Positions 16,990-39,186 of a stretch of DNA of 39,186 nucleotides are shown here, in pieces; position 1 is the stretch's first letter, and the number at the start of each line of letters is the position of its first letter. The notes beneath the pieces were generated by a model. It was given only the letters and a program-made list of their open reading frames with translations. It was not told the DNA's origin and ran no database searches. The position numbers and the translations under genes are program-made. The stretch comes from an uncultured Selenomonadales bacterium (GTDB lineage: Bacteria > Bacillota > Negativicutes > Selenomonadales > Selenomonadaceae), in the NCBI GenBank assembly GCA_946408355.1, contig CAMJRX010000022.1, forward strand, positions 1-39,186, given 5' to 3'.

Positions 16990-17184
16990 GCCTTTAATGG
17001 CGCGACCTTTTAAAAAAACTTATCTCTTGATAAAAAAATATTTCTCAAAATCAAGAATGGCGTCATCATCGGAATAATTTAAGCTTGAAAAAATTTTTAT
17101 AAATTGCAGGAAAATTTTTTATCAGCTCGAAAGAAGAAAAATAAATTTTATTCGTGGAACAATTTTACAAGGAGGTAATTTTAT

Positions 17185-19350
17185 ATGGCAATGACGGTCA
17201 TGTACAATGCGGGTGCTCAGCTCTCTTTGGGGCAACTCAATAAAAATATTAGTAAAGCTGGAAAAGCTCTGGCAAAAGTCTCGTCGGGTCAAAGGATTGT
17301 CAGTGCACAAGACGATTCAGCGAGCTTTTCCATAAGCGAAAAAATGCGGGGGCAAATTCGCGCTCTCTTGCAGGACAATCAGAACGTGCAGAACGGTTCG
17401 TCAATGGTTAGAACTGCTGAACGCGGTATCGACCAGATTATTCAAAACATACGCACGCTTAAGGAAAAAGCAATCGACGCCGCTAACGACTCAAACACCG
17501 ACGAAGATCGCGCAACGATTCAAAAAGAATTTAATCAGCTTGTGTCGACGATTGACGACATCACTATCGGCACCGAGTTTAACGGCAAACGACTTATCGA
17601 CGGCACCTATTCTGGAGAATTAAAAACTACTACCGAGAATGTTGTTACCGAAGAAAAAGTCATAGAATTGAAAAGAACTGACAATGCGCCTGTTACGCTT
17701 AAGGAAGGCGATAAAATCACTCAAGATGGCGTTTATATGTTGCCAAAAGATTTTACCGGTGAACTACCGATAGAAGCAAAAAACGTTAAGCTTATTCAAC
17801 AAGACCCGTCAACCGCTCTCAAGGATGTTTATATCACGACACGCGAAGGTGGCGAGACCAACCTTTGGCTTGAGAACTTTAACGTAACCAACACCGAAGA
17901 TAAAAATTTCATCAAGTTCCAAGGTCCAGATAACACGCTTAATATCGTAGGCGAAAACAACTTCAACGATAATTATAATAAAGAAGCGAGAAAATCAGCT
18001 GTTATAAACGTTGGCGGCGGACTGACGGTTGAAGGTGGATCTGCAGGAAATGGGAAAATTAATTTTACCAACACGACCGACAATAGTTACAACGGAGCAG
18101 TTATAGGAGCTGATTATGAGGAACTTTTAAATTCGGATATCACGATAAACGGCGGAACGTTCACTGCAAATTTCACTCGAGGCGGTGGGGCATTTATCGG
18201 TAGCGGCGGTACGAAAAATTCCAGTATTGGAAACATAACAATAAACGGCGGAACCTTTATCGATAATAGTGGAGAACGCAGTAGTAAGTATGGTTATAGA
18301 ACATGGCAAGATGCTATAATAGGTGGTGGCGATAGAGTAGGAAACATCACCATACAAAACGCTGTAATAGACATGAAATCGACGCCGCGAACAAATGAAC
18401 CGGCTATTGGAGCCAGTAATAACGGAAGAGTCGGTAATATTTATGTAAAAAATTCCCAAATAACTTATAGGGGATCAGCCGGAGCGGCTATAGGAACAAG
18501 CGGCTACAGCTCCTATTCAACAGCAGGGAATATTACAATAGAAAATTGCCTCTTAGACATACAAACGCAAAGAGGCACGGGAATTGGTAGCGGTTATTGT
18601 GGACGTGTTGGAAACATAACGATTATTCATACCGATTTGAGCAATGTAACCTCGACAAGTGGCGAACAGGTAGGCAAAGGCGTAAGCGGTACTTGCGGCA
18701 CGGTAGATTTAAGTCAAGCTGATGGGTATACTCCTATTGTCTGGCAAACCGTCCACTCTGGAATTTCCGAACCGGAAAACACGGAATGGACGCCCACAGA
18801 AATTACAAGGCGAACTATAGAATCTGTCACAAAGGTGCTAAAACATACCGAAGAATTGTGGATTCAGCATGGAACACAGGCAAATCAGCGAATTAATCTT
18901 AAAATAAACAGTATGCAGACTAAAGATTTAAAAGGCACGATCCCTAACGAAGCTGACAATGCTCAATTAAATGCATGGTCAAATTCGCCCGAAAAGCAAG
19001 CCGAACTTCAAGCGTTGCTCGATAAGGCAAAAGATATGACACTCAACGACGCAAGAGTTACGACTGTTGATAACGCTAAAGTTGCAATTCGTGTTGTTGA
19101 AGGCGCATTGGAATATGCCCTCAACGAGGCGACGACTATGGGCGCGTATCTTCAAAGGCTTGAAGCTATTGACGCGAATGTCACAACAATGGGTGAAAAT
19201 GTTCAAAATTCCGAATCGACAATTCGCGACGCTGACATGGCAAAAGAAATGTCCGAATACACTAGGGCAAATATTCTTTCGCAAGCCGCGCAATCCATGC
19301 TCGCTCAAGCTAATCAAAATTCTTCGTCGGTCTTAAATTTATTGAGTTAA
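17185..19350 (+). CDS. Flagellin with large beta-helix-like insertion
   Basis: 721 residues, much longer than typical flagellins (about 270-500). The N-terminal D0/D1 region (1-140; LGQLNKNISKAGKALAKVSS, QDDSASFSISEKMRGQIRAL) and the C-terminal D1/D0 region (about 545-721, ending LAQANQNSSSVLNLLS) are orthodox filament-forming parts. Between them, about 315-490, lie repeats of roughly 30 residues, each a G-N-I-T-I strand (319, 349, 387, 418, 448, 476) preceded by an (A/G)-I-G-x-G turn. This suggests a parallel beta-helix exposed on the filament. Three cysteines (455, 472, 504) are unusual for flagellin. AAGGAGG precedes the ATG. No catalytic motif was recognised, and no convincing sigma-D promoter. 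Confidence 0.93.
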   Translation: MAMTVMYNAGAQLSLGQLNKNISKAGKALAKVSSGQRIVSAQDDSASFSISEKMRGQIRALLQDNQNVQNGSSMVRTAERGIDQIIQNIRTLKEKAIDAANDSNTDEDRATIQKEFNQLVSTIDDITIGTEFNGKRLIDGTYSGELKTTTENVVTEEKVIELKRTDNAPVTLKEGDKITQDGVYMLPKDFTGELPIEAKNVKLIQQDPSTALKDVYITTREGGETNLWLENFNVTNTEDKNFIKFQGPDNTLNIVGENNFNDNYNKEARKSAVINVGGGLTVEGGSAGNGKINFTNTTDNSYNGAVIGADYEELLNSDITINGGTFTANFTRGGGAFIGSGGTKNSSIGNITINGGTFIDNSGERSSKYGYRTWQDAIIGGGDRVGNITIQNAVIDMKSTPRTNEPAIGASNNGRVGNIYVKNSQITYRGSAGAAIGTSGYSSYSTAGNITIENCLLDIQTQRGTGIGSGYCGRVGNITIIHTDLSNVTSTSGEQVGKGVSGTCGTVDLSQADGYTPIVWQTVHSGISEPENTEWTPTEITRRTIESVTKVLKHTEELWIQHGTQANQRINLKINSMQTKDLKGTIPNEADNAQLNAWSNSPEKQAELQALLDKAKDMTLNDARVTTVDNAKVAIRVVEGALEYALNEATTMGAYLQRLEAIDANVTTMGENVQNSESTIRDADMAKEMSEYTRANILSQAAQSMLAQANQNSSSVLNLLS

Positions 19351-21165: not shown

Positions 21166-22107
21166 TTAAATCCTCTCCTCAAGTTTTTTTAGTAAGTTCA
21201 TGTGCAGTTCAAAAGTTTTGCGGTTGTTTTTGGCTATCGTGTCTAAAATTAATCCGCAGGTGAACGATAACAGCGACGCTAGCATTAAAAATCCACTGAC
21301 GATTAACGTTGGGAAACGCGGCACGAGTGAAGTTTCCAGATATTGAAAGAAAACGGGCAAAAAAAGTATAAGCGCAACGAGTGCCAGAATCAACGCAATC
21401 ATGCCAAAAAATTGCAACGGCTTGTAATCGCGGTATAAATTAAAAATCGTCATTATGACTTTTGCGCCGTCGACATAAGTATTTAATTTACTCTCTGAAC
21501 CGGAAGGGCGGTCGCGATAATTGACGGGTACGGACTTTAACAGAAAATTTTTATCGAGCGCGTGAATCGTCATTTCTGTTTCAATCTCAAAGCCTTTAGA
21601 CAGGACTGGAAAACTTTTAACGAATAGCGGACTGAAGGCTCGATAGCCCGTCATCACGTCGAGAATCGGATTTTTAGGACGCCAAAACATATTTATAAAC
21701 TTGCGAACCATGACATTGCCGAAGTTGTGGAAAGGACGCTTATTCTCGGTAAAATACGTCGAGGAAAGTCTATCGCCGATAACCATATCCGCCGCGCCGT
21801 TTAAAATTAAATCGCACATTTCGCGGGCATTTTCAGCGGGGTAAGTGTCATCGCCGTCAATCATCAAGTAACAATCGGCGTCAATGTCGCGAAACATCGT
21901 GCGAATCACGTTGCCTTTGCCTTGCCGATATTCATAGCGAACAATCGCGCCCGCTGCCCGCGCAATTTCGTCGGTGCCGTCTGTGGAATTGTTGTCGTAA
22001 ACGTAAATAGTTGCGTCGGGCAATGCCATCCGATAATCACGAACAACTTTTCCAATCGTTTGGCTCTCGTTGTAGCAGGGAATCAGTATAGCAATTTTCG
22101 GTATCAT
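21166..22107 (-). CDS. Family 2 membrane glycosyltransferase, polyprenyl-phosphate type
   Basis: 313 residues from the ATG at 22105-22107, which overlaps the preceding stop as ATGA. The GT-A domain begins IAILIPCYNESQTIGKVV, with DNNSTDGT near 38 and the metal-binding Asp85-Gly-Asp87. Two hydrophobic segments, about 240-260 and 275-298, anchor the C-terminus. The layout is that of dolichol- or undecaprenyl-phosphate sugar transferases, which load a sugar onto a lipid carrier at the inner membrane. Linked to an O-acetyltransferase, it suggests envelope glycan or flagellin glycan work; the sugar is not predictable. Confidence 0.88.
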   Translation of the reverse strand: MIPKIAILIPCYNESQTIGKVVRDYRMALPDATIYVYDNNSTDGTDEIARAAGAIVRYEYRQGKGNVIRTMFRDIDADCYLMIDGDDTYPAENAREMCDLILNGAADMVIGDRLSSTYFTENKRPFHNFGNVMVRKFINMFWRPKNPILDVMTGYRAFSPLFVKSFPVLSKGFEIETEMTIHALDKNFLLKSVPVNYRDRPSGSESKLNTYVDGAKVIMTIFNLYRDYKPLQFFGMIALILALVALILFLPVFFQYLETSLVPRFPTLIVSGFLMLASLLSFTCGLILDTIAKNNRKTFELHMNLLKKLEERI

Positions 22108-22682
22108 ACGATTAAAGTTTCCAAACCAATTTTTTTTACAACGCGGCAAGGATTGCCAAACGCCATAACATTTTCGGGAATATCTTTAGTGACTAATGAT
22201 TTAGCACCGATAACCGAACCGCTCCCGACTTTAACGCCAGGCAAAATTGTAACGTCGCCGCCAATCCAAACGTCGTCGCCAATGATAATCGGCTCTGCAC
22301 GCTCCAAACCTTCTGCGCGGCGAACGGCGTCAAGTGGATGAATCGCCGTATAAAAACCGCAATTAGGACCGACGAAAACTTTTTTACCGAGCCGGATTTG
22401 AGCGCAATCCATAAGATAACAGTTATGATTTAAAAAAGTGCCTGCGCCGAGAAAAATATTATAACCGTAATCAACCATGAACGGCGACAAAATTTCTACA
22501 GTATCGGCGTCGACATTAGGCAAAATCTCTCTCAAAATTTTTCTGCGCCGCGATAAGTCCTGCATACGAGTCAAATTAAATTTCAAACATAAATCTTTAA
22601 CAAATGCTCTCTCTTCAATCAATCTTGCGTCGAAATTGGCATCGTACCACTGCCCCGCAAGCATTTTTTCTTTTTCTGTCAA
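22104..22682 (-). CDS. Sugar O-acetyltransferase (maltose/galactoside acetyltransferase family)
   Basis: 192 residues from the TTG at 22680-22682 (AAGGAG ten bases upstream), giving the family's standard MTEKEKMLAGQWYDANFD. The left-handed beta-helix hexapeptide region is in the C-terminal half (GDDVWIGGDVTILPGVKVGS). The catalytic histidine of the LacA/Maa family is His115 (FYTAIHPLD). It transfers acetyl from acetyl-CoA to a sugar hydroxyl. First gene of the leftward operon, with the promoter at 22711-22739. Confidence 0.92.
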   Translation of the reverse strand: MTEKEKMLAGQWYDANFDARLIEERAFVKDLCLKFNLTRMQDLSRRRKILREILPNVDADTVEILSPFMVDYGYNIFLGAGTFLNHNCYLMDCAQIRLGKKVFVGPNCGFYTAIHPLDAVRRAEGLERAEPIIIGDDVWIGGDVTILPGVKVGSGSVIGAKSLVTKDIPENVMAFGNPCRVVKKIGLETLIV

Positions 22683-22710
22683 GATTGTCACACTCCTTAA
22701 AGTTTCTTTT

Positions 22711-22739
22711 ATTATAGCGAATTCGGCTTGACGAATCAA
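22711..22739 (-). promoter_or_regulatory. Sigma-A promoter of the acetyltransferase operon
   Basis: TTGATT (22734-22739) and a perfect TATAAT (22711-22716) are 17 bases apart on the minus strand. Its -35 box directly abuts that of the rightward promoter at 22728-22756, so the two promoters cannot be occupied independently. Confidence 0.7.
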
Positions 22740-22756
22740 AGGTCAGTGCTTAAAAT
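22728..22756 (+). promoter_or_regulatory. Sigma-A promoter of the DUF4422 gene
   Basis: TTGACG (22728-22733) and TAAAAT (22751-22756) are 17 bases apart on the plus strand. It lies 22 bases before the ATG at 22779, so the leader is very short, with AAAGGAGG within it. It shares DNA with the divergent leftward promoter. Confidence 0.65.
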
Positions 22757-22778
22757 TTTCCGCAAAGGAGGCATATTT

Positions 22779-24266
22779 ATGGCGAGCTACGTGCCGCGCG
22801 TGTTAATCTGCGGAAACATTGAAGCGTTTAAAGAAAAAATTGGCAACAAATCTGTCGAAATTATTGGGCATATAACTTTTAACAAGACAGGCGACGATGT
22901 GAAATTATTTTTTGGCGAGCATGCTTTAACAGAGAAGGATATAAAAAATTTGCTTGACGGTGTGGCAGAATATTTAATTTTCGTTGACGCTTTGGACTTT
23001 TATTATTATTTTAAAAATTTTCCTGCAAACGCTCAGGTTATTTCGGCAGAAACTTTTGCTCAAAAATTTCATAACGGTTTCTTTTCTATCGAAATGTTTT
23101 ACCTGCTGAAAGAATTGCTCAATCATAAAAAATTTAGACATGTACTTGATTTGGATTGTTTATTTGATAAAAGCGACTTTCGCACGCGAGGTGGCTCGAA
23201 TGTCGACCTTGACTGTATCGCAGAAAATATTTATCCGATTATGGAAAATGTTTACGGGAAAATTTATCGTTCGTTCGATGAGTACCGCTTTAAAATTTTC
23301 GACGTGATTATTTTAAGTAAAGAGCGTACGCCCGCTGGATTTGTTGATATACTGATTGAGACTGACGCTTTAACAGAAAATATTTTGGCATTCGTTAGAA
23401 AAAATTCCGAACTTGAAAGTTGGCTTAACAAGTCGCAAAATATTTTCGCAAGGATTGAATATTTTAATGTAGCAAGCGGCGCGTGGTGTCTTATCAAAAA
23501 AATTATGCCACTTGTCGATGTTGGCGTTTACGTCGTCACACACAAGGACGCTAAACTTTATACATTACCAGACGGCTATAAAATTATTCACGCGGGACAC
23601 GCACTCGCAAAAAAATATTTCGGCTACGCAGGCGACGACACTGGCGACAATATCAGCCAACTAAATCCTTTCCTCGATGAAGTTACGGTGCTTTATTGGA
23701 TTTGGAAAAATACTAAGCACACGCACGCCGGTATTGTTCACTACCGCAGATTCTTTACGAGCGACATTAAGCAGAAAACTTTCGATGCGGAGAAAATTTT
23801 AAGCGCGGCGGAGATTTTAAGCATTTTGAGCGATTATGATATTATTGTTCAAAACGAAGGTATATCCACCCGTTCGCAACGTGATATGATGATTTTTTCG
23901 ACAGGGCAACCCGATTTAGTAAAAGTGGCAGAAAAAATTATTCGCAATCATTTGGCACGCACGCAACCAGGTTATCTTGGCGCCTTCGACGACGTTTTAA
24001 GCAGTTTGACATTATTTTTTGGCGGAATGTATATTACGCGCCGAAATATTTTCAATGCTTACTGCGAGTGGCTATTTTCTTTTATAATCGACGCAACAAA
24101 AGAAATTCGCGACAAAATAGAGATTAACGGTAAAAGTCTTGAAGAAATGTCACACGATTATTCCCGAATCGCAGGATTTTTTGCTGAACGCATGTTGACT
24201 ATTTGGCTAATGAAAAATCATTTGCGAATTAAAACATTGCCGACGATGTTCCGCGAGGGCGTTTGA
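22779..24266 (+). CDS. DUF4422 glycosyltransferase-like protein
   Basis: 495 residues from the ATG after AAAGGAGG; the open frame runs 17 codons further upstream through the promoter. Residues from about 247 to 480 resemble the DUF4422 family, with DVGVYVVTHKD at the start, the GDDTGDNIS segment and HAGIVHYRRFF. DUF4422 proteins occur in polysaccharide and glycan loci and are thought to be glycosyltransferases. The N-terminal 240 residues are not recognised. The DxD-like DLDCLFD near 124 is noted but unproven. No signal peptide. Followed after three bases by ecfT. Confidence 0.75.
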   Translation: MASYVPRVLICGNIEAFKEKIGNKSVEIIGHITFNKTGDDVKLFFGEHALTEKDIKNLLDGVAEYLIFVDALDFYYYFKNFPANAQVISAETFAQKFHNGFFSIEMFYLLKELLNHKKFRHVLDLDCLFDKSDFRTRGGSNVDLDCIAENIYPIMENVYGKIYRSFDEYRFKIFDVIILSKERTPAGFVDILIETDALTENILAFVRKNSELESWLNKSQNIFARIEYFNVASGAWCLIKKIMPLVDVGVYVVTHKDAKLYTLPDGYKIIHAGHALAKKYFGYAGDDTGDNISQLNPFLDEVTVLYWIWKNTKHTHAGIVHYRRFFTSDIKQKTFDAEKILSAAEILSILSDYDIIVQNEGISTRSQRDMMIFSTGQPDLVKVAEKIIRNHLARTQPGYLGAFDDVLSSLTLFFGGMYITRRNIFNAYCEWLFSFIIDATKEIRDKIEINGKSLEEMSHDYSRIAGFFAERMLTIWLMKNHLRIKTLPTMFREGV

Positions 24267-37279: not shown

Positions 37280-39186
37280 TTAACTTTTAACCAGCTGTGA
37301 ACCGCTAATTTTGTACGTGGCGTTGTTTACGCTGAAGGTTGTAGCAGTGAAATCTTTCAAAGTAACCGAACCGCCGCTGACATTGAATGTAATCGCGTCA
37401 CTTGACTTGTCGTAAGACGCCGTAAACTTCAGATTGTCAAGCGTGAGCGTGTCGCCGTCTTCAAAGCCGTAAATTATATCCTTGCCGTCGCCTTTCGCGT
37501 AGTAGAAAATATCTTTGCCGTCGTCGCCCCAAAGTTTATCGTCGCCTTTGCCGCCAATAAGTGAATCTCTGCCGGTGCCGCCTTTTATGCAGTCATTTCC
37601 TGCGCCGCCTATTAATGTATCTCCATCCGCGCCGCCGTCAATCGTGTCATTGCCTTTTCCGCCAACTAAACTGTCATTTCCAGCCTCTCCAAGCAAATTA
37701 TCATTGCCATCGCTGCCGTCAATCGTATCATTGCCCGCGCCTCCAAGCAAATTATCATTGCCTTTGCCGCCCGACAATGTATCTTTGCCGTCGCCGCCGC
37801 TCAAGCTGTCATTTCCTGCTACACCGAGCAATTTATCATTGCCGATGCCGCCGATAATATAATTCGCGTTGGTGTTGCCCGTGATATTTAGCGAGGAGGT
37901 CGCCGCCGAGCCGTCAATCGTCACTAGGTCGGCATAATTCGTTGCCTTGAATGTCTTCAGCGCGGCGGGCAAGGTTACTGAGGTATTATCTTTGTTGAAA
38001 ATGCCATTTTTGGTGTAGGTTCCTGTCACAGCATTTGTTATCGTTAATTCTTTGTCCAATCCGTTCGTGACAGTCAAAGTATTGCTATCGTAGGTCAGGA
38101 TAATGTTCTTGCCGCTGACTTTATAACTGCCGTCGCCTAAACTGCTACTAATGCTGATTGTATCTTCGCCCGCAGTGTAATCGGTTATCGTGTCTTTGCC
38201 GCCGCTGAAGATGAATAAATCATTTCCTTTGCCGCCGATAAGTTTATCGTTTCCAGAACCGCCAGAGAGTGTATCTTTGCCGTCGCCGCCGCTCAAGCTG
38301 TCATTTCCTGCTACACCGAGCAATTTATCATTGCCGATGCCGCCGATAATATAATTCGCGTTGGTGTTGCCCGTGATATTTAGCGAGGAGGTCGCCGCCG
38401 AGCCGTCAATCGTCACTAGGTCGGCATAATTCGTTGCCTTGAATGTCTTCAGCGCGGCGGGCAAGGTTACTGAGGTATTATCTTTGTTGAAAATGCCATT
38501 TTTGGTGTAGGTTCCTGTCACAGCATTTGTTATCGTTAATTCTTTGTCCAATCCGTTCGTGACAGTCAAAGTATTGCTATCGTAGGTCAGGATAATGTTC
38601 TTGCCGCTGACTTTATAACTGCCGTCGCCTAAACTGCTACTAATGCTGATTGTATCTTCGCCCGCAGTGTAATCGGTTATCGTGTCTTTGCCGCCGCTGA
38701 AGATGAATAAATCATTTCCTTTGCCGCCGATAAGTTTATCGTTTCCAGCACCGCCAGAGAGCGTATCTTTGCCGTCTCCGCCAGATAAACTGTCATTTCC
38801 AGCCCCGCCAAGCAATTTATCATCGTCAGCACCGCCAGAGAGCGTATCAGCCCCGTCGCCGCCAGATAAACTGTCATTTCCTGCGCCACCGAGCAATTTA
38901 TCGTCGCCGTCATCGCCGGATAACGTATCATTTCCGTCGCCGCCGCTTAAACTATCATTTCCAGCCCCGCCGAGCAATTTATCATTGTCAGCACCGCCAG
39001 AGAGCGTATCCTCGCCGTCGCCGCCGCTTAAACTGTCGTTGCCAGCTCCGCCGAGCAATTTATCGTCGCCGTCACTGCCAGAAAGCGTATCTTTGCCATT
39101 TCCGCCGCTTAAGCTGTCATTTCCTGCGCCACCGAGCAATTTATCGTCGCCGTCACTGCCAGAGAGCGTATCATCGCCGTCGCCGC
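37280..39186 (-). CDS. RTX-type calcium-binding repeat protein, N-terminus outside window
   Basis: At least 635 residues are visible; the open frame continues past the right edge, so the start is missing. Most of it is GGxGxDxLx nonapeptide repeats that form calcium-binding beta-rolls in proteins exported by type I secretion. Two 164-residue modules repeat nearly exactly: a run of RTX repeats, a segment with DLFIFSGGKDTITDYTAGED, and a non-repeat segment around KDNTSVTLPAALKTFKATNY. The C-terminal part after the repeats (about the last 55 residues) is the probable secretion signal, with VTLKDFTATTFSVNNATYKI. No enzymatic domain is visible here. Adhesin, protease or S-layer roles are possible. 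It converges on flhA. Confidence 0.9.
   Translation of the reverse strand, partial: GDGDDTLSGSDGDDKLLGGAGNDSLSGGNGKDTLSGSDGDDKLLGGAGNDSLSGGDGEDTLSGGADNDKLLGGAGNDSLSGGDGNDTLSGDDGDDKLLGGAGNDSLSGGDGADTLSGGADDDKLLGGAGNDSLSGGDGKDTLSGGAGNDKLIGGKGNDLFIFSGGKDTITDYTAGEDTISISSSLGDGSYKVSGKNIILTYDSNTLTVTNGLDKELTITNAVTGTYTKNGIFNKDNTSVTLPAALKTFKATNYADLVTIDGSAATSSLNITGNTNANYIIGGIGNDKLLGVAGNDSLSGGDGKDTLSGGSGNDKLIGGKGNDLFIFSGGKDTITDYTAGEDTISISSSLGDGSYKVSGKNIILTYDSNTLTVTNGLDKELTITNAVTGTYTKNGIFNKDNTSVTLPAALKTFKATNYADLVTIDGSAATSSLNITGNTNANYIIGGIGNDKLLGVAGNDSLSGGDGKDTLSGGKGNDNLLGGAGNDTIDGSDGNDNLLGEAGNDSLVGGKGNDTIDGGADGDTLIGGAGNDCIKGGTGRDSLIGGKGDDKLWGDDGKDIFYYAKGDGKDIIYGFEDGDTLTLDNLKFTASYDKSSDAITFNVSGGSVTLKDFTATTFSVNNATYKISGSQLVKS
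37778..38748. repeat. Exact 479-bp direct repeat inside the RTX gene
   Basis: Bases 37778-38256 and 38270-38748 read identical line by line, offset 492 bases (164 codons), so the reading frame is kept. The flanking bases differ on each side. It is a recent duplication, or one kept uniform by gene conversion. Confidence 0.9.

Follow-up and report, generated by a model that had tools for sequence, protein, structure and literature searches.

The central variable region of flagellin is reported to take up 61 domain types, and proteolytically active flagella have been described (PMC5595980). In flagellinolysin (NF033876), a functional domain, a collagenase-like metallopeptidase, sits in this region and is displayed on the filament, and its insertion and lateral transfer are reported in the same source. 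At the same position in the chain, the D2-D4 flagellins of Salmonella, E. coli and Achromobacter have a variable region that is reported to recombine between flagellin genes (PMC12445082, PMC7018530); outer domains are described as nearly absent from the Bacillota flagellins of one surveyed set (PMC12445082). Among beta-helix proteins, members of the Cthe_2159 family (PF14262) are reported to bind celluloses and polygalacturonic acid (PMC6712302), the solenoid of the L. reuteri serine-rich repeat protein (SRRP) to bind polygalacturonic acid, rhamnogalacturonan I and mucin (PMC6973325), and, in a survey of fibrillar adhesins, solenoid adhesive domains are connected with both SRRP and Cthe_2159 (PMC9210967). 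Here we describe a flagellin gene within a 39,186-nucleotide stretch of DNA (contig CAMJRX010000022.1 of assembly GCA_946408355.1, from an uncultured Selenomonadaceae bacterium; hereafter the window), the product of which is predicted to carry a right-handed parallel beta-helix between its filament-forming ends.

The window flagellin compares with each of these systems in part. In place of the gluzincin domain of flagellinolysin it has a predicted beta-helix, and its translation contains no HExxH. It is set apart from the D2-D4 flagellins by its predicted fold and by a domain with relatives among non-flagellins as well. A sister flagellin insert (locus L045) and a non-flagellin relative (L017) exceed the Pfam cut-off for Cthe_2159, whereas the window insert falls below that family by sequence and is carried inside a flagellin. 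The SRRP binding region (PDB 5ny0) differs in being part of a serine-rich repeat adhesin rather than a filament; it is 12% identical and gave no sequence match. Since functional inserts have been reported in flagellins before (PMC5595980), the phrase "new kind of decorated flagellum" in the initial annotation of this DNA was too strong. The beta-helix outer domain may be a variant of such flagellins that has no report so far, judged by titles and the openings of abstracts; the outer-domain survey of Fields et al. 2024 lay outside that scope, and the variant may already be in print.

A predicted beta-helix outer domain in the window flagellin

Both ends of the window protein match flagellin families (Table 1), Flagellin_N with E 2.2e-29 (102.7 bits; Pfam cut-off 26.6) and Flagellin_C with E 1.5e-19 (70.5 bits; cut-off 23), and both superpose on solved filament flagellins. 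The Pfam scan of the whole protein found nothing above cut-off between these two matches, and the best 25 of 27 NCBIfam matches were exclusively flagellin and FlgL or hook-associated models. By its Pfam ends and this superposition, we regard the protein as a bacterial flagellin that is presumably exported and polymerised into a filament.

Modelled alone, the insert between the ends forms an all-beta coil (pLDDT 88.7, pTM 0.89), and in the whole-protein model its strands span about residues 182-510. VIA-align 2 gave 50 rows for the insert, with Vag8, PL6 alginate lyases, L. reuteri SRRP, PfbA, polygalacturonases and tailspikes; judging from the titles, we take all 50 to be right-handed parallel beta-helix proteins or similar phage tail proteins. 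The coiled parallel strands of the insert model superpose on solved members of this fold. The beta-helix insertion proposed in the initial annotation is therefore borne out by prediction, as the model consists of coiled beta-strands and the fold search leads to beta-helix proteins; coils do occupy the residues first assigned to the helix (315-490), and the helix itself is larger.

The sequence of the insert is also repetitive. Strand motifs begin at residues 290, 317, 349, 386, 417, 448 and 476 (spacings 27, 32, 37, 31, 31 and 28), and hydrophobic residues show an autocorrelation peak at 31. The strict motif GNI[TY][IV] has five copies within residues 145-560 (spacings 37, 31, 31 and 28), compared with a mean of 0.01 in shuffled sequences and at least five in 0/20,000 shuffles. 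There are also seven copies of a looser strand motif (shuffled mean 0.28; reached in 0/20,000 shuffles) and six IG[SATG] turns (shuffled mean 1.8; reached in 128/20,000). The regularly spaced G-N-I-T-I strands noted at first reading are thus present; as for the (A/G)-I-G-x-G turns noted with them, IG turns do exceed shuffled expectation, whereas the full IGxG is kept at 338 (IGSG), 379 (IGGG) and 467 (IGSG) alone, the remaining turns being IGA or IGT.

Three cysteines had been placed in the same 315-490 zone and called unusual. Residues 455 and 472 lie within it and residue 504 slightly outside. In alignment A2, window included, these columns hold cysteine in 2/21, 1/19 and 2/22 rows and are therefore not a family feature, and each of 21 relatives has one to nine cysteines at some position, so that the residue is nothing out of the ordinary here and deserves no particular weight. 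A disulfide among the three was considered and dropped, as the positions are not conserved.

Several results weigh against the assignment of the fold. Foldseek alone returned no match for the insert at E <=0.001 (best 1.4e-2, an alginate lyase), and VIA-align 2, which re-aligns Foldseek's own candidates, is the sole source of the strong scores. Searched by sequence, solved chains gave the insert chance-level matches only (SMC4 at E 0.32; cytochrome c at E 1 with profile A3), and Pfam offered no credible family up to E 10, the Cthe_2159 cut-off not being reached. The fold is moreover predicted rather than solved, and a beta-helix by itself shows no function. With these points taken into account, the models still make a beta-helix outer domain in the window flagellin very probable.

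As to a standard D2/D3 flagellin fold, the 50 insert rows contain no flagellin, an absence that excludes nothing, given that the rows are Foldseek candidates only. With phmmer, the whole protein matched the Geovibrio thiophilus flagellum (9au6) over residues 9-414; for the insert, 9au6 was absent both from the sequence search of solved chains and from the 50-row fold list.

Conflicting trees of the flagellin core and the insert

Compared with the flagellin at L038:509-2701, the window gene is 88.6% and 86.1% identical at its ends and 35.8% identical in the insert. By identity, the nearest inserts are that of L042:6106-7374, with 47.1% across 208 positions (65.7% and 69.0% at the ends), and that of L039, with 45.3% across 329 positions (47.5% and 60.4% at the ends). 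In a core tree built from the joined ends of 35 flagellins, 30 of which have an N-terminal part of at least 100 residues, the window groups with L009 (the same gene as L038:509-2701), L031 and L042:4230 (support 97/90), the last two placed through their C-terminal end only. In a tree of 66 insert domains (41 from flagellins and 25 others, incomplete and near-identical ones having been dropped), it groups instead with L039, L051 and L142 (support 99/97).

Approximately unbiased (AU) tests rejected the core-tree clade of the window when it was forced on the insert data (p-AU 2.5e-5), as well as the window, L039 and L051 held together on the core data (p-AU 8e-65). The likelihood gaps are large, at 82 and 110 units; the groups were picked after the trees had been seen, which makes the p-values optimistic and tells against the conclusion to that extent. 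Because the two trees conflict, the helix looks like an exchanged cassette, and we consider it likely that it has moved between flagellin genes. Inserts of flagellins and of other proteins are strongly separated in the insert tree (two label changes, versus 20 in shuffles); although the tree takes two changes, the data do not reject one clade holding every flagellin insert (p-AU 0.127), and the domain may have entered flagellins a single time.

Two or more flagellin open reading frames (ORFs) with middle regions of differing length lie near one another at L038, L044, L047, L050, L112 and L116, and such clusters are a likely substrate for cassette exchange.

An insert much less conserved than the core, and one that flagellins exchange, in genomes with many flagellin genes (seven Flagellin_N matches in the window's own genome and 12 in genome G003), would also suit a variable shield, that is, a rigid, swappable surface that alters the antigenic and phage-receptor face of the filament and has no specific ligand. 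We regard this main rival as possible and on balance rather unlikely: the domain also occurs in CAP/RTX-type non-flagellins, one of them in the same genome, where shielding a filament makes no sense, and the N-terminal part of the domain holds a conserved signature from W228 to G308.

Occurrence of the domain in flagellins and in other proteins

When genome contigs were scanned with the whole protein, the best 80 of 577 confirmed stretches carried titles of Selenomonadaceae and kin, many of them rumen or reticulum genomes. With the insert as query, 23/60 genomes match, comprising the window's own, 22/36 others in the genus and 0/23 elsewhere in the class. Profile A4 at E 1e-10 matches 62/189 genomes of the family (own included) and 11/30 genera. 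Thirty loci were fetched from the family matches: 24, window included, have at least one flagellin end on the domain-bearing ORF (both ends in 19), and the remaining six carry the domain with no flagellin end. The flagellin-borne domain falls in eight genus codes (g1, g33, g34, g35, g42, g43, g44 and g48), and all five domain matches in G003 adjoin a Flagellin_N match.

A phylum sample of 299 genomes yielded nine matches: the window's own, G182 from the same family (flagellin L148) and seven from other families. In those seven, the domain lies in large ORFs in which no flagellin ends were detected; some of these ORFs are cut at the edge of the locus, so that a flagellin end beyond it would be missed. 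Within the genomes sampled, the flagellin-borne form appears confined to this family.

Middle regions range from 37 to 840 residues among 97 flagellin-like ORFs. This range, together with cassette exchange, bears on a mechanical role for the outer domain, in which contacts between adjacent helices would make the filament stiffer, as an aid to swimming through viscous digesta. Outer-domain dimerisation is reported to modulate motility in bacteria of viscous environments (PMC8931119); a tight lattice would presumably resist both variable length and exchange, and we consider such a role improbable.

Pfam was run on 82 of the 97 middle regions, excluding 15 near-copies, short or repeated rows, and found Cthe_2159 in two (E <=0.01), Beta_helix_3 in one, VWA in two and Peptidase_M9 in five. 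The Cthe_2159 matches are the insert of L045:5377-6393, at 28.8 bits (cut-off 25.8) and 42.7% identical to the window insert, and that of L048, which at 18 bits is below cut-off. Eight carriers of the domain without flagellin ends contain CAP in two cases, RTX (HemolysinCabind) above cut-off in two and nothing in two; L017 passes the Cthe_2159 cut-off (35.4 bits), and L020 and L022 pass that of Beta_helix_3 (39.3 and 33.4 bits). The window's own genome encodes L156, an 815-residue carrier with CAP and RTX repeats.

Three further architectures were observed. In the ORF at L023:487-3357, where HELTH is seen, a region of flagellinolysin-type peptidase (NF033876, E 5e-52; 177.5 bits, below the cut-off of 205) is combined with the same beta-helix and with repeats that look RTX-like by eye, with no flagellin ends detected; peptidase and helix modules are therefore found both within and outside flagellins. 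At L069:4001-5662, in a metagenome-assembled genome of the Selenomonadaceae, a VWA-domain insert lies between normal flagellin ends (VWA_4 E 2.3e-10; VWA E 1.3e-8). In the window's own genome, G000:C11:48054-48866 (L160) scores 38.6 bits for Cthe_2159, above cut-off, within an open frame of 5640 residues that is possibly a giant surface or secreted protein.

A candidate sugar-binding function

Glycine and isoleucine dominate the insert columns that are conserved in at least 80% of rows; N, A, L, V, Y, F, W228, D310 and a few others make up the remainder. The conserved signature in the N-terminal part of the domain comprises W228, N250, N258, G277, L280, A305, I307 and G308. Glycan binding by the insert is plausible by analogy with the sister insert at L045 that exceeds the Cthe_2159 cut-off; that carbohydrate binding is the main role of the domain we hold to be slightly less likely than not.

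Alternatively, the insert could be a polysaccharide lyase or hydrolase that makes the filament enzymatic. Many of its structural neighbours are lyases, epimerases or polygalacturonases, and enzymatic flagellins are reported (PMC5595980). The neighbours also include adhesins and passengers (SRRP, PfbA and Vag8), and the conserved insert columns hold no K, R, H or E and a single aspartate, D310; we consider enzymatic activity highly improbable.

Considering the sequence, homology, predicted fold and tree conflict together, we moderately favour as the best overall explanation a beta-helix outer domain that would be displayed on the filament, bind sugars and be exchanged as a cassette. The window flagellin would pass unfolded through the flagellar channel and polymerise through its D0/D1 ends, leaving beta-helices to stand out from the filament by the thousand. 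These would hold polysaccharides weakly and with high multivalency, be they pectin-like sugars of plant cell walls, mucin or the glycans of other cells, and would thereby mediate attachment to, or sensing of, surfaces in the gut. Recombination of the helix cassette among the bacterium's own flagellin genes and those of related genera would alter the specificity. By a more doubtful extension, gut Selenomonadaceae may share a pool of lectin-like beta-helix cassettes, related to CAP/RTX-type domains, and build mixed-flagellin filaments with several sugar specificities, in which case the propeller would double as a tunable organelle for carbohydrate binding with thousand-fold multivalency.

Some features speak against sugar binding on the filament. 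As the conserved columns are mostly G and I, they favour structure over one shared ligand, and no binding-site residue is identifiable among them. Low conservation between cassettes fits antigenic variation equally well. There are, in addition, other flagellin genes in the same genome (six further Flagellin_N matches, one of which, L007, is FlgL, above the NCBIfam cut-off), and by sequence the window flagellin may be either a major or a minor filament component.

If the helix does bind sugars, the flagellum would be an adhesin of massive multivalency, and the grip of motile rumen and gut bacteria on plant fibre or mucus would become easier to explain. Cassette exchange would also amount to a natural experiment on the surface tolerance of the filament and offer a natural display scaffold. 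Since the domain should be expressible alone and has relatives in non-flagellins, including one in the same genome, the purpose of flagellin outer domains becomes directly testable.

The flagellin gene and its surroundings

The ORF proposed in the initial annotation proved correct, stop codon included (Table 1). Its C-terminal core opens with WIQHGTQANQ, a stretch common to related flagellins (alignment A1). A modelled strand at residues 147-159 may, as a low-confidence guess, form a beta-ribbon stalk with residues 540-552.

Table 1. Features of the flagellin gene in the window.
Feature	Position	Strand	Basis
Flagellin gene, 721 aa plus stop, intact, ATG start	17185..19350	+	ORF list and translation
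AGGAGG, likely ribosome-binding site, separated from ATG by 9 bases	17170..17175	+	Direct reading of sequence
N-terminal D0/D1 filament core, residues 1-141	17185..17607	+	PF00669 at residues 8-141; helices in model
Linker, residues 142-164	17608..17676	+	Model; pLDDT <50 at 146-161
Predicted right-handed parallel beta-helix outer domain, about residues 165-515	17677..18729	+	Models, fold searches
Most regular coils, residues 305-510; GNITI-like strands and IG turns, spacing 27-41 residues	18097..18714	+	Motif count
C-terminal linker, residues 516-556	18730..18852	+	Low model confidence; pLDDT <50 at 512-555
C-terminal D1/D0 filament core, residues 557-721	18853..19347	+	PF00700 at 636-720; alignment A1; model

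A sigma-28-type consensus gave five sites in the window (2.7 expected) and none upstream of the flagellin gene; a looser form is present in 12/91 distinct flagellin upstream regions. Sigma-70-like sites numbered 10 (6.0 in shuffles, sd 2.7) and terminator-like sites two (3.6 in shuffles), and nothing is built on any of these counts.

Just upstream of the flagellin, on the minus strand, lie elongation factor G and a protein recognised by eye that we take to be ribosomal protein S12 (rpsL). On the downstream side, genes for a beta-lactamase-family protein, a family 2 glycosyltransferase and an acetyltransferase come first and are followed at ~27.9-37.1 kb by fliL, fliM, a CheC/FliN-type switch protein, a response regulator, fliO, fliP, fliR, flhB and flhA, which places a flagellar export operon a few kb from the flagellin. 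The stretches at 21169-22739 (-) and 22728-24263 (+) encode a family 2 glycosyltransferase, a hexapeptide acetyltransferase and a DUF4422 protein, genes that could be linked to glycosylation of flagellin or of the cell surface. Directly after flhA, a 619-residue protein (37283-39139, minus strand) contains nine matched stretches of RTX calcium-binding repeats.
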